Shown in pieces: positions 10,232 to 14,837 of a stretch of DNA of 34,911 bases; position 1 is the first letter of the stretch; every line of letters begins with the position of its first letter. The stretch is from Candidatus Sulfotelmatobacter sp. (GTDB lineage Bacteria > Acidobacteriota > Terriglobia > Terriglobales > Acidobacteriaceae): contig JASHPL010000248.1 of assembly GCA_030038125.1 (NCBI GenBank), forward strand, positions 1 through 34,911. Reading direction: 5' to 3'. A program made the position numbers and the translations under genes. The notes under the pieces were generated by a model. It ran no database searches and was not told the origin of the DNA. It saw nothing but the letters and a program-made list of their open reading frames with translations.

Positions 10232-10465
10232 CCCCACCCGCTTCCCACAGTCATGCACAGAATTTTTGACTTTGCCACAGCTGATTAACAGCTCCGGACC
10301 GGTTTTCCGTTGCTCCGAATTCCTGCAATTGGCACACTCAGAACCCTCAACCCAAAAACTCCTGCCGCCTCTCCATCGCTCGATGTGGAAAAAGCGGCGC
10401 AAACGTAACCCAAATCCCGTACCAAGGCCGTCATTGTTGGGGATACAACCTATAGTGTTTCCCTC

Positions 10466-10494
10466 TTGACAGGCACAATAAGCAGGAGTAACTT
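10466..10494 (+). promoter_or_regulatory. Sigma-70-type promoter upstream of the nrdJ region
   Basis: TTGACA is a perfect -35 box, followed after 17 bp by TAACTT as a plausible -10. It would start transcription near base 10501, directly in front of the hairpin series described below. No other equally good promoter was found in the ~650-bp gap. Confidence 0.6.
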
Positions 10495-10500
10495 TGCAAT

Positions 10501-10886
10501 CCCAAGCAACGAAATTTTCGCCTCACGGGAATGAGGCGGGGTTTCGAAGAGAGAAGATTCCGGCGGTTATTGCGTCAAGCCAGAGGTGACTTGGGGTGAT
10601 GCCGCGGAACAACTGGGGCGCCCGGCTCTCCGGATCCGACTTCGACGGGGAATCGGACCATATAGCTTCGGCGCCCTCAACCTTAATTCTTAACCTTCGG
10701 GTCTCCGCAAGCCAAACGCCCGGACCCCGAAGTAAACCAAAGAAGTGCGGTGGCCGTTCCCTGACCCTCCCCCGGGGTGCGACAACAAACGCAATCGCGC
10801 AGGAGTAAGTAACAATGGACCCGCCCATAGGGGCGGATGAGAAGTTGTCGTCCTCCGGCGCAGCAGTTTTGCATCAGGAGCCCACA
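10501..10886 (+). ncRNA. Hairpin-rich 5' leader, candidate structured RNA
   Basis: The interval between the predicted transcription start and the ATG at 10887 holds at least four stem-loops in series. Hairpin 1 is 10510-10546, with CGAAA/TTTCG and CGCCTCA/TGAGGCG joined by possible G-U pairs. Hairpin 2 is about 10560-10606 (CGGC/GCCG closing CAAG/CTTG). Hairpin 3 is 10616-10676 (GGGCGCC/GGCGCCC enclosing TCCGA/TCGGA). Hairpin 4 is 10695-10732 (CTTCGGGTC/GACCCCGAAG, one bulge). A fifth, CCGCCC/GGGCGG, lies at 10821-10836. No cobalamin-riboswitch core could be recognised. It could be a regulatory leader or an independent small RNA. Confidence 0.45.
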
Positions 10887-11465
10887 ATGGAAGGTTTGAC
10901 TCGCCTCGTCTCGGAATCGCTGGTTCGGCACGGCCTCGACCGCCCGGTGGATTATCGCCGTCTGCGCTGGTCGCGCTGGTTCCGCTGCGAGTCCCATCAC
11001 AGTTTGCTGCTAGTCCCCAGCAAGCCGGGCGTTTTCGCTTTGGCGGAGGAAATTACTAGGTTTGATCAGGACATGGCTTCAGCCCTGCCGGATCGATCTC
11101 TTCAGAATAGCATGGCTTTAGCCGCTGAACCCCGCCGCATGCTCGCGGTCACCCAATTTCTCGAAGACGACGATATGGCCTTCGTCCTGGACCGTATGAT
11201 GACGCGGGAAAACCCCATGCGCTCTCGCCTGGCGAGTGGCCGCTATTTCGTCCGCTTCGTCATTATTGAAGACCGATTCCAGCGCCGATCCATTCACACA
11301 GCGCTGACGCAATGGCTAAACGACTCTGCCGAAAAGGCCAGCGGCATCGGATCACATTTTGCCGCCTCACTCGAACTAACGCCTGCAACCGAATACATTC
11401 CGCCTACGATCGCGCCGGTTGCATCAAGACATTTCGGCAAGGCTGCAAGCTCAATTTTGCCGTAG
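10887..11465 (+). CDS. Conserved-looking protein of unknown function upstream of nrdJ
   Basis: The protein is 192 residues from the ATG giving MEGLTRLVSESLVRHG. This start has AGGAG with 6-nt spacing; the track's start at 10815 also has AGGAG but adds a low-complexity, hairpin-bearing extension, so the shorter form is preferred. Visible features are a basic, aromatic segment YRRLRWSRWFRCESHHSLLL, a strand PSKPGVFALAEEI, then LAVTQFLEDDDMAFVLDRMM and GRYFVRFVIIEDRFQRRSIH. The order 'PGVFAL ... YFVRFVIIED ... AL.QWL' loosely recalls GIY-YIG-like folds but lacks their catalytic signature, so no function is assigned. It shares the leader with nrdJ and lies 225 bp upstream of it, suggesting co-transcription. 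Confidence 0.72.
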   Translation: MEGLTRLVSESLVRHGLDRPVDYRRLRWSRWFRCESHHSLLLVPSKPGVFALAEEITRFDQDMASALPDRSLQNSMALAAEPRRMLAVTQFLEDDDMAFVLDRMMTRENPMRSRLASGRYFVRFVIIEDRFQRRSIHTALTQWLNDSAEKASGIGSHFAASLELTPATEYIPPTIAPVASRHFGKAASSILP

Positions 11466-11471
11466 CGGAGA

Positions 11472-11501
11472 TTTGGAAGGGCACGGCTTCAGTCGTGCCG
11501 C
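11472..11501 (+). repeat. Small palindromic repeat (second family)
   Basis: GGAAGGGCACGG followed by cttcag and tCGTGCCG forms an 8-bp stem (one G-U) 6 bp after the stop of the upstream gene. A degenerate relative beginning GGAAGGGCAC occurs at 25341, next to a copy of the larger palindromic family, so this appears to be a dispersed element rather than a local terminator. No T-run follows. Confidence 0.5.
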
Positions 11502-11690: not shown

Positions 11691-14600
11691 ATGCCTGAAT
11701 CCAAAACCGCAACCCAAACCAGCACCGCTGCTCCGTCTGCTCCAGCGAAGAAGAAAGCCCCCGGACTCTCGTTCCGGCGCCTCTTTACCAAGCCGGGTGT
11801 CTCTCCCTATGGCGAAATCGAGTGGGAATTTCGCACTGCTCAGATCACCGATGCCCAGGGCAACGTGATCTTCGAGCAGAAGGACGTCGAAGTCCCGAAA
11901 GACTGGTCGATGACCGCGACGAATATCGTCGCGTCAAAGTATTTGCATGGCCGCCTGGGTACGCCCGAGCGTGAGACCGGAGTCCGCCAGCTTGTAACCC
12001 GAGTTGCAGAAACGATTCGTGACTGGGGATTGGCTCAAGGCTACTTCAAGACACCTGAAGATGGCGCCACATTTCACGACGAACTCGTACACATTCTCGT
12101 CCGTCAATATGCCGCCTTCAACTCGCCCGTCTGGTTCAACGTGGGATGCGACCGCATCGAGCCGAACTCCGACGGCCGCAATTGGCATTGGAACCCGCAG
12201 ACGCAGCAAGTCGAATTCGGCGTAACCGGATACTCCAAGCCGCAGTGCTCCGCCTGCTTCATCAACTCAGTAAAAGATTCGCTGGACTCGATCCTGACTC
12301 TGGCAAAGACTGAAGGGATGCTCTTCAAGTGGGGATCTGGAACCGGCACGAATCTTTCTCCGCTCCGTTCCTCGACCGAAGGCTTGAGCGGCGGCGGCAC
12401 GGCCAGCGGCCCGCTTAGCTTCATGAAGGGATTCGACGCGTTCGCTGGCGTAATCAAATCCGGCGGCAAAACGCGCCGCGCGGCGAAGATGGTCATTCTC
12501 AACATCGACCATCCAGACATCGAGGAATTCATTCTGTGTAAGCAGAAGGAGGAAGCCAAGGCCCACGCGCTGGTCGCAATGGGATATGACGGCTCTCATC
12601 CTGATTCTGATGCCTATTCTTCCATCTTCTTCCAGAACGCGAACAACTCCGTCCGCGTGACCGATGACTTCATGTACGGTGTCGTCCGCGACACGGATTT
12701 CTCCACCAAGTCCATCACGGATGGCCGCGTGATGAAGACCTACAAAGCCAAAGACCTGCTGTACAAGATTTCCGAAGCCACTTGGCACTGTGGCGATCCC
12801 GGCATGCAGTACGACACCACGGTCAACCGCTGGCACACGTCGAAGAACACGGCGCGCATCAATGCCTCGAATCCCTGCAGCGAATATATGTTCCTCGACG
12901 ACTCGGCCTGCAACCTGGCCAGCCTGAACCTGCTGAAGTTCGCGCCCAATGGCACGTTTGACGTGGAAGCATATCGCCACGCCGTCGACATTCTGATCAC
13001 GGCGCAGGAGATCATCGTCGATAACGCCGGATATCCGACCGAAATGATCATGCGCAACTCGCATGACTACCGTCCGCTCGGACTCGGCTACGCCAATCTC
13101 GGCGCGCTCCTGATGGCCGCAGGACTTCCCTACGATTCCGACGGCGGCCGCGATTACGCCGCCTGCGTCACCGCGATCATGTGTGGCGAAGCGTATTTGC
13201 AATCTTCGCGCATCGCCGAGTTGTGCGAGCCGCTTGCGCCGGCCACGGAACCGACAAGGAAAACTCTCGCAGAAACAAATCTCGGAGCAGGGATCACCAA
13301 TGCTCGTGTAGGCGCGGACGCCCTCGTCCGCCCGGCCGAGCCAAGCTCGGCAGCCCAGGCGCAGACCATGCCCGGAGGAGCATGCCCGGGCTGGTACATC
13401 AATCGCGAGCCCTTCCTCGACGTCATCCGCATGCACCGCGCCTCGGTCAACGGCATCGGAACCAGCCATGGCCATGCGGGGACGGCCGCCCTCGGCCGTC
13501 CGGTGGAGCGAAGCTCCGCAGCCTCCCAATTGCCGGAATTGATCGACGCTTCCAAGCAGGTTTGGGACGAAGCCCTCTCCCACGGTGAAAAATTCGGCTA
13601 TCGCAACTCGCAAGTCACCGTTCTCGCGCCTACCGGCACGATCGGCTTCATGATGGACTGCGACACCACCGGCATCGAGCCCGATCTCGCGCTGGTGAAA
13701 TACAAAAAGCTGGTGGGCGGCGGCATGATCAAAATCGTCAACAACACTGTGCCCACGGCTCTGTTCAAGCTCGGATACACGCACGAGCAGACCGACGCCA
13801 TCGTGAGCTACATCGACGCCACGGGCACGATCGAAGGCGCGCCAAACATCAAAGACGAGCACCTCGCCGTCTTCGATTGCTCCTTCAAGCCGGCCAAAGG
13901 CACGCGCTCGATCCACTACATGGGACATCTCCGCATGATGGCCGCTGCGCAGCCGTTCATCTCCGGAGCCATTTCGAAGACCGTCAATCTTCCCGAGAAC
14001 GCGACGATCGAAGACATCAGCGAAGCCTACATCCACGCGTGGAAGCTCGGTCTGAAAGCGGTCGCCATCTATCGCGATGGATCCAAGAAAGCGCAGCCAC
14101 TAAGCGCAGCAGGAACAAAAACAGCGCAAGCGGGCAACGTAGGGACAGCCAGTTCGGCTGTCCAAGTCGAAGAAGAAGATCTGAACGCTCCTCCCCGCGC
14201 CGTGCGCCACAAGCTAAAAGAAGAGCGCATGTCGGTCACACACAAATTCAAAGTCGGAGATCACGAGGGCTACATCACCGTCGGGCTCTATCCCAACGGG
14301 GAACCCGGCGAGTTGTTCGTAAAGATGGCGAAAGAAGGTTCGACTGTCTCCGGCCTGATGGACAGTTTCTCTTTGGCGGTTTCGATCGCCCTGCAATACG
14401 GCGTACCGCTAAAGCTTTTCTGCGAAAAATTCGCCCATACCCGCTTCGAGCCCAGCGGATGGTCGGGCAATCCCGACATCGGCTACGCCAAATCGATCAT
14501 GGACTACATCTTCCGCTGGCTCGAATCGCGCTTCATGACGGGCCAACAGCAGATGCTCTTCGACAATCTTCGTCCGAAATCTTGGTCGTCCCCGTCGTCG

Positions 14601-14837
14601 GAGGGAACGGACGTCAAGGGTATGGGCTCGATCTTTGGCCCAGTTGGCGACGATCGCGGCCGCGTGCCGGAGGACAAGAGACCGCCAGCTGGCTCCAGCG
14701 TCCACGCCGCCGACGCGCTCTCCAACATCGTCGATCTCGGCGACGCCCCCAGTTGCAGCTTCTGTGGATCCATCATGACCCGCAACGGCAGCTGCTACCG
14801 CTGCATGTCCTGCGGCTCAACCAGCGGCTGCTCGTAA
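11691..14837 (+). CDS. nrdJ: Vitamin B12-dependent ribonucleotide reductase, class II
   Basis: This enzyme converts ribonucleotides to deoxyribonucleotides with adenosylcobalamin as radical source, so oxygen status does not matter. The 1048-residue protein has the class II core: Cys186 in KPQCSACF and Cys407 in DDSACNLASLNL as the reducing pair, and the NPCSE motif at 394-398 with the presumed thiyl Cys396. The late motif TVLAPTGTIGFMMDCDTTGIEPD and a C-terminal cysteine cluster (CSFCGSIM...CYRCMSC) complete the family pattern. GGAG lies 7 nt before the ATG. Three palindromic DNA elements are inserted in frame, at residues ~540-555, ~595-611 and ~817-825. The first two flank the conserved NREPFLDVIRMHRASVNGI segment and sit where homologues are expected to have short loops; the third lies in the linker before the C-terminal domain. 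The core motifs are intact, so the enzyme is probably active. Confidence 0.96.
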   Translation: MPESKTATQTSTAAPSAPAKKKAPGLSFRRLFTKPGVSPYGEIEWEFRTAQITDAQGNVIFEQKDVEVPKDWSMTATNIVASKYLHGRLGTPERETGVRQLVTRVAETIRDWGLAQGYFKTPEDGATFHDELVHILVRQYAAFNSPVWFNVGCDRIEPNSDGRNWHWNPQTQQVEFGVTGYSKPQCSACFINSVKDSLDSILTLAKTEGMLFKWGSGTGTNLSPLRSSTEGLSGGGTASGPLSFMKGFDAFAGVIKSGGKTRRAAKMVILNIDHPDIEEFILCKQKEEAKAHALVAMGYDGSHPDSDAYSSIFFQNANNSVRVTDDFMYGVVRDTDFSTKSITDGRVMKTYKAKDLLYKISEATWHCGDPGMQYDTTVNRWHTSKNTARINASNPCSEYMFLDDSACNLASLNLLKFAPNGTFDVEAYRHAVDILITAQEIIVDNAGYPTEMIMRNSHDYRPLGLGYANLGALLMAAGLPYDSDGGRDYAACVTAIMCGEAYLQSSRIAELCEPLAPATEPTRKTLAETNLGAGITNARVGADALVRPAEPSSAAQAQTMPGGACPGWYINREPFLDVIRMHRASVNGIGTSHGHAGTAALGRPVERSSAASQLPELIDASKQVWDEALSHGEKFGYRNSQVTVLAPTGTIGFMMDCDTTGIEPDLALVKYKKLVGGGMIKIVNNTVPTALFKLGYTHEQTDAIVSYIDATGTIEGAPNIKDEHLAVFDCSFKPAKGTRSIHYMGHLRMMAAAQPFISGAISKTVNLPENATIEDISEAYIHAWKLGLKAVAIYRDGSKKAQPLSAAGTKTAQAGNVGTASSAVQVEEEDLNAPPRAVRHKLKEERMSVTHKFKVGDHEGYITVGLYPNGEPGELFVKMAKEGSTVSGLMDSFSLAVSIALQYGVPLKLFCEKFAHTRFEPSGWSGNPDIGYAKSIMDYIFRWLESRFMTGQQQMLFDNLRPKSWSSPSSEGTDVKGMGSIFGPVGDDRGRVPEDKRPPAGSSVHAADALSNIVDLGDAPSCSFCGSIMTRNGSCYRCMSCGSTSGCS
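13307..13354 (+). repeat. Double-hairpin palindromic element, copy 1 (inside nrdJ)
   Basis: This 48-bp element has two perfect 7-bp stems: GCGGACG/CGTCCGC with loop ccct, and GCCGAGC/GCTCGGC with loop caa. It is flanked by TGTAGG and CAGC. Read in the nrdJ frame it encodes VGADALVRPAEPSSAA. A short direct repeat (CATGCCCGG twice) follows at about 13368-13389, suggesting the inserted block is longer than the element. Confidence 0.85.
13475..13522 (+). repeat. Double-hairpin palindromic element, copy 2 (inside nrdJ)
   Basis: This is also 48 bp, with stems GGACGGCCG/CGGCCGTCC (9 bp, loop ccct) and GGAGC/GCTCC (5 bp, loop gaa). The stem sequences differ from copy 1 but still pair, while loops and ends are kept. 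In the same nrdJ frame it encodes AGTAALGRPVERSSAA, clearly related to the copy 1 peptide. Confidence 0.87.
14139..14163 (+). repeat. Palindromic element, half copy (inside nrdJ)
   Basis: CGTAGGGACAGCC-agttc-GGCTGTCC reproduces the first hairpin of the element with an 8-bp perfect stem. The second hairpin is absent. It is read in the same frame as the complete copies (VGTASSAVQ) and lies in the linker before the NrdJ C-terminal domain. Confidence 0.7.

Follow-up and report, generated by a model that had tools for sequence, protein, structure and literature searches.

We analyzed a 34,911-nt stretch of DNA (hereafter, the window) from Candidatus Sulfotelmatobacter sp. (Acidobacteriota, Terriglobia), in which all features described here lie on the + strand. 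The locus of interest is the unk-nrdJ operon. Its first gene, unk (10887–11465), encodes a protein of 192 aa, and in several genera a homologue of this gene immediately precedes nrdJ. The nrdJ gene (11691–14837) encodes a class II (i.e., adenosylcobalamin-dependent) ribonucleotide reductase (RNR) with the Pfam domains Ribonuc_red_2_N, Ribonuc_red_lgC, and TSCPD. A leader region (10466–10886) precedes the operon, and the Shine-Dalgarno (SD) sequence AGGAG (10876–10880) and the start codon ATG (10887–10889) together span 10876–10889. The arrangement GGAGCCC...ATGGAR is conserved in homologues, which begin at this ATGGAR; the alternative start at 10815, named in an earlier note on this DNA, is not supported.

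The unk product represents a lineage-specific family linked to nrdJ (window 10887–11465; loci L002–L029 and L033–L040). A profile built for it matched 60 of 250 genomes of the GTDB family, representing 29 of its 79 genera. Within a class-wide sample it was confined to that family; nrdJ-type sequences were present in 136 of 151 genomes of the class. Searches of Pfam, NCBIfam, and PDB with unk gave no match, no RNA-binding domain was recognized in it, and its AlphaFold model, which is of low confidence (mean pLDDT of 50), had no Foldseek match. The core of the family reads WSRWFRCES...PGVFALAEE...RRMLAV...ADDL...L...GRCFVRY...QRR...ALxQWL, and the C-terminus is often PLPSGF. The order of beta and alpha elements vaguely resembles that of a degenerate GIY-YIG domain, which is only an impression and unproven. 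In addition, in-frame low-complexity insertions (such as VGTAALGCPAERSSA and VGADALVRPAEPSSA) recur in NrdJ (window ~13200–13560) and in the variable loop of unk (L002–L029), and their appearance suggests a repeat element that has entered the coding sequence. Copies of the Acido-Lenti-1 RNA (RF01687) occur near the operon in several relatives, also between unk and nrdJ (L012, L014, L015, L017, L020, and others), and similar text can be found at 11471–11500 of the window.

The leader begins with a promoter (10466–10494) whose −35 hexamer TTGACA (10466–10471) and −10 hexamer TAACTT (10489–10494) are separated by a 17-bp spacer, just as the earlier note had described, and both hexamers are kept across homologous loci. 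A plain consensus promoter scan called none at 10466–10494 because the −10 hexamer is poor, agreeing with the consensus at 3 of 6 positions. NrdR is the usual dATP-sensing repressor of RNR genes, and a single NrdR is encoded in the genome (TIGR00244 match, 191.9 bits). Palindromes resembling NrdR boxes, which do not appear in the earlier note, are located at 10443–10458 and 10473–10488. Putative box 1 (10443–10458, ATACAACCTATAGTGT) is kept 5′ of nrdJ family-wide, and its counterparts in relatives are nearly perfect palindromes of 16 bp (L024, ATACAATATATTGTGT; L040, GTACAATATATTGTGT). Putative box 2 (10473–10488, GCACAATAAGCAGGAG) lies within the promoter spacer and starts 30 bp past box 1; it is degenerate in the window, with its left half conserved, and fuller in relatives (GCACAATATAGGGGAG in L040, following GTACAATATATTGTGT, and CGCCCTATATGTGGGA in L037).

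NrdR requires a pair of boxes spaced by about three helical turns over the polymerase site (PMC9110341), and the locus carries two palindromic boxes, matched to the consensus by eye and without a profile score, that are about three helical turns apart, overlap the promoter, and are conserved across genera. Few parts of the locus are as well conserved as the promoter at 10466–10494, probably because it carries these two boxes. Since it lies within the two putative boxes, transcription of the operon is probably controlled by NrdR, with the RNA described below as a second layer. Promoters of the NrdR regulon share the same two-box arrangement over the RNR promoter (PMC9110341), but NrdR acts on DNA and leaves a covarying downstream RNA unexplained. 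The initially transcribed region AATCCCA (10498–10504) is conserved in most homologues; the putative transcription start is at ~10499–10502. A second promoter-like string, TTGACC...GCGTAnATTC, occurs ~400–600 nt upstream of the NrdR promoter in many genera (L103, L105, L112, L117, L122, L131, L134, and others) and is possibly part of a further conserved transcript.

The global fold of the leader has an energy of −154.4 kcal/mol (z = −1.35), and 6 of 100 shuffled sequences folded as well. Folding energy by itself is weak support for structure, whereas the comparative evidence is strong. Hairpin P1 (10512–10545) begins ~12 nt past the inferred transcription start, close to the ~10 nt proposed beforehand, and carries the apical loop CGGGAA (10526–10531). 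Among 28 sequences of the genus, 13 of its 14 pairs displayed two-sided changes and 83.9% of cells were paired; its covariation score was 0.498, compared with 0.270 ± 0.020 for shuffled sequences and at most 0.215 with slid arms, and its mean folding z was −2.7. The P1 loop is CGGGAA in the genus and a GGAAAC or GAAA-type cap in many other genera. Hairpin P2 (10560–10608) presents GAGGUG within its apical loop CCAGAGGTGA (10580–10589), and 9 of its 10 pairs showed two-sided changes in 30 sequences, two other genera included, with 77.7% paired and a covariation score of 0.443 (0.198 when shuffled and at most 0.148 with slid arms). Kinship among sequences can inflate such scores; the slid-arm controls for P1 and P2, which retain the relatedness and yet score far lower, counter this concern.

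Downstream of P2 is a variable region with two predicted hairpins, P3 (10616–10677, GGGGCGCC...GGCGCCC), which has a counterpart in some members of the genus only, and P3b (10695–10732, CTTCGGG...CCCGAAG), which is not generally conserved. It is followed by the conserved unpaired motif YGCGGUGR (10746–10753, TGCGGTGG in the window) and by hairpin P4 (10754–10782), whose apical loop is C-rich (ACCCTCCCC, 10764–10772). Because alignments A4 and A8 mis-register the arms of P4, its pairs were counted on loop-anchored arms: all 10 showed two-sided changes in 25 sequences, 81.6% were paired compared with 62.9% after shuffling, and 0 of 500 shuffles reached this level. P4 is also the minimum free energy hairpin in nearly all members of the genus. 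A further perfect hairpin at 10820–10835 is, like P3 and P3b, not generally conserved. Thus, the successive stem-loops listed in the earlier note, including the one near 10815, all exist, and the covariation among homologues that it had set in advance as a test proved strong in P1, P2, and P4.

Two further readings of the loops were considered and are not adopted here. Kissing between the P1 and P4 loops (L1-L4, GGGA/UCCC) or the P2 and P4 loops (L2-L4, GAGG/CCUC) is complementary in many sequences, but it lacks compensatory change and is not kept in other genera. A CsrA-type GGA loop does not fit P1, from some of whose loops GGA is missing.

We surveyed motifs in 74 leaders 5′ of unk (unk+) from ~27 genera of one GTDB family, as well as in 25 nrdJ leaders without unk (unk−), mostly of the same family. 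GAGGUG in the P2 apical loop was found in 67 of the 74 unk+ leaders and GCGGUG between P2 and P4 in 71, compared with none of the 25 unk− leaders for either motif; these counts are not phylogenetically independent, the loci being related by descent, and the two groups have leaders of different lengths. The stems vary across the 74 leaders while both short motifs persist. In a first set of 38 leaders, GCGGTG occurred in all (5.1 expected in shuffled sequence) and GAGGUGA in 33 (1.1 expected). GAGG was predicted to be apical in 57 of 66 leaders, as compared with 16.6% of random positions, and outside the genus P2 pairs better when each arm keeps its own partner than after arms are swapped (0 of 500 permutations). 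Most unk− nrdJ leaders still have the NrdR-type promoter, so the RNA does not accompany every nrdJ.

A covariance model of P1 and P2 matched 16 of 250 genomes of the family, each with a single copy, and all examined matches were 5′ of nrdJ. Among 247 genomes sampled across the phylum, it gave no match beyond the genus and none beyond the family. In the other genera that it matched (L097, L099, and L100), unk and nrdJ again lie downstream. Since this model is tuned to the genus, the leaders 5′ of unk in more distant genera were read directly. In a few loci, unk is kept and the motifs are lost (L148 and L155, and partly L153 and L154). Collectively, the covariation in P1, P2, and P4 and the conservation of motifs across genera confirm that the leader at 10466–10886 forms a genuine structured RNA, conserved in evolution, that goes beyond chance hairpins. 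Base-pair covariation and a fixed position 5′ of the same gene or operon, two marks of a conserved cis-regulatory leader RNA, are both observed here.

In our view, the leader is probably a so far undescribed RNA that regulates unk-nrdJ in cis, acting post-transcriptionally and bound by a factor. Its structure, its loops, and its genomic position are conserved. Judged from the sequence, transcription would start near 10500 from the promoter embedded in the two putative NrdR boxes, and NrdR would probably turn the operon down at high dATP. The transcript would then open with a folded module consisting of P1, P2 with its apical GAGGUG, the variable region, the single-stranded YGCGGUGR, and P4 with its C-rich loop. 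Loops that stay fixed on stems that change in sequence but not in pairing suggest that a factor recognizes them; the conserved unpaired motifs are therefore the probable binding surface for one acting in trans, either a protein or a metabolite. Such a factor, once bound, may set the amounts of unk and NrdJ that are made. In one member of the genus (G031, locus L030), unk has been lost and the NrdR boxes, P1, P2, GCGGTG, and P4 remain intact directly ahead of nrdJ, which suggests that the RNA serves nrdJ.

Translation, Rho-dependent termination, and mRNA decay are candidate output steps. No intrinsic terminator was found on the + strand, and sequestration of the SD sequence did not exceed that in shuffled sequence (SD duplex mean z of 0.06), so that neither form of riboswitch expression platform was detected. 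The spacing between P4 and the start codon is variable, and the predicted fold, unlike many riboswitches, has no closed multi-branch junction. These points, like the few loci that keep unk without the motifs, count against the regulatory reading proposed here. A leader peptide was also rejected: the spacing between elements is not a multiple of three and shifts among all three frames, indicating that the leader is not coding and holds no conserved leader peptide.

Given the nature of the downstream enzyme, the RNA might be a new class of riboswitch that senses a metabolite linked to class II RNR, such as adenosylcobalamin, 5′-deoxyadenosine, or a deoxynucleotide. Its place before an adenosylcobalamin-dependent RNR and its invariant unpaired loops on covarying stems would fit this idea, but no known aptamer matches, an expression platform is not recognizable, and the hairpins are strung together by long variable linkers. 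We regard this version as possible but rather unlikely.

The close pairing of the RNA with unk suggests autoregulation, in which the unk protein would control translation of the operon by binding GAGGUG and GCGGUG in its own leader. Nearly every unk+ leader carries the motifs and none of the 25 unk− nrdJ leaders does, and in G168 (L046), where deletion of the unk core has left a 54-aa remnant with the first residues and an FPAGF end, P2 with its GAGGUG has been lost as well. However, the same leader keeps GCGGTG and a P4-like hairpin, G031 retains the whole RNA without unk, and the RNA and unk may simply be co-inherited. Leaders of the ribosomal-protein autoregulatory type are likewise single-copy and lineage-restricted, with conserved loops and a protein gene downstream that allows possible feedback; the present case differs from them in the want of a recognized RNA-binding domain in unk and in the one genome that keeps the RNA without it. 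Hence, we judge autoregulation by unk to be unlikely.

The heptamer GAGGUGA is perfectly complementary to the 3′ end of bacterial 16S rRNA, and the P2 loop could accordingly serve as a ribosome standby site. The apical position of this heptamer and its enrichment would be expected of such a site. Nevertheless, in the window ~300 nt separate it from the start codon downstream, its last base differs in some genera (GAGGUGG or GAGGUGC), which weakens the complement, and a start codon at SD spacing generally does not follow P2. Moreover, GCGGUG is equally conserved, yet it is a poor complement of 16S rRNA. These points render a ribosome-binding role for P2 doubtful.

The earlier note had left the choice between a new leader type and a small RNA. 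The former gains from the covariation and the absence of an Rfam match, and the latter loses ground. Although a promoter of its own and a single copy per genome could befit a stand-alone small RNA, the element was always directly 5′ of unk-nrdJ or nrdJ where examined; its constant place between the NrdR-type promoter and the operon, with no terminator, makes a small RNA very unlikely and is in keeping with the cis-acting leader that we favor.

Rfam covariance models, whose use on the leader had been proposed together with a doubt about a cobalamin riboswitch, gave no match in the window at the gathering threshold, and the sole leader match at E ≤ 5 was spurious (16.9 bits). Permissive Rfam scans of 40 homologous loci uncovered no recurring family at the leader, where matches were due to chance, and Acido-Lenti-1 was discarded as the leader family, since its matches lie elsewhere in the loci. 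Membership in the known Cobalamin (RF00174) or nrdJ RNA (RF03034) families, for which gene context is the only argument, is extremely improbable: RF00174 does not match the leader, as had been suspected, and RF03034 (threshold of 40.3 bits) matches neither in G000 nor at the nrdJ leaders of ten relatives. A genuine Cobalamin riboswitch elsewhere in the same genome scores 90.7 bits, which demonstrates that the Rfam test works in this organism. Cobalamin riboswitches likewise occupy 5′ leaders and control B12-related genes, though a repressing B12 switch before a B12-dependent enzyme would make little sense. The nrdJ RNA motif, reported 5′ of nrdJ in Streptomyces (PMC8079986, PMC8388888), is also a structured orphan leader before a class II RNR gene, but it has a compact 80-position model. 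Our literature search, which covered few subscription papers, returned no description of the leader, and it is apparently an undescribed orphan candidate among conserved structured leader RNAs.

Control of RNR is essential, and its usual explanation is NrdR together with allostery. Here, an apparently undescribed RNA with fixed loop sequences lies between an NrdR promoter and a class II RNR operon in ~27 genera. We tentatively postulate that it could define a new class of riboswitch or of protein-responsive RNA for the class II RNR of a large acidobacterial group, linking NrdJ synthesis to adenosylcobalamin or nucleotide status alongside NrdR, perhaps with unk as a partner. Were the RNA to sense a cofactor, a nucleotide, or a protein, the control of DNA precursors would gain an RNA layer, and the conserved loops, compensable stems, and companion protein unk of this RNA make the idea directly testable.
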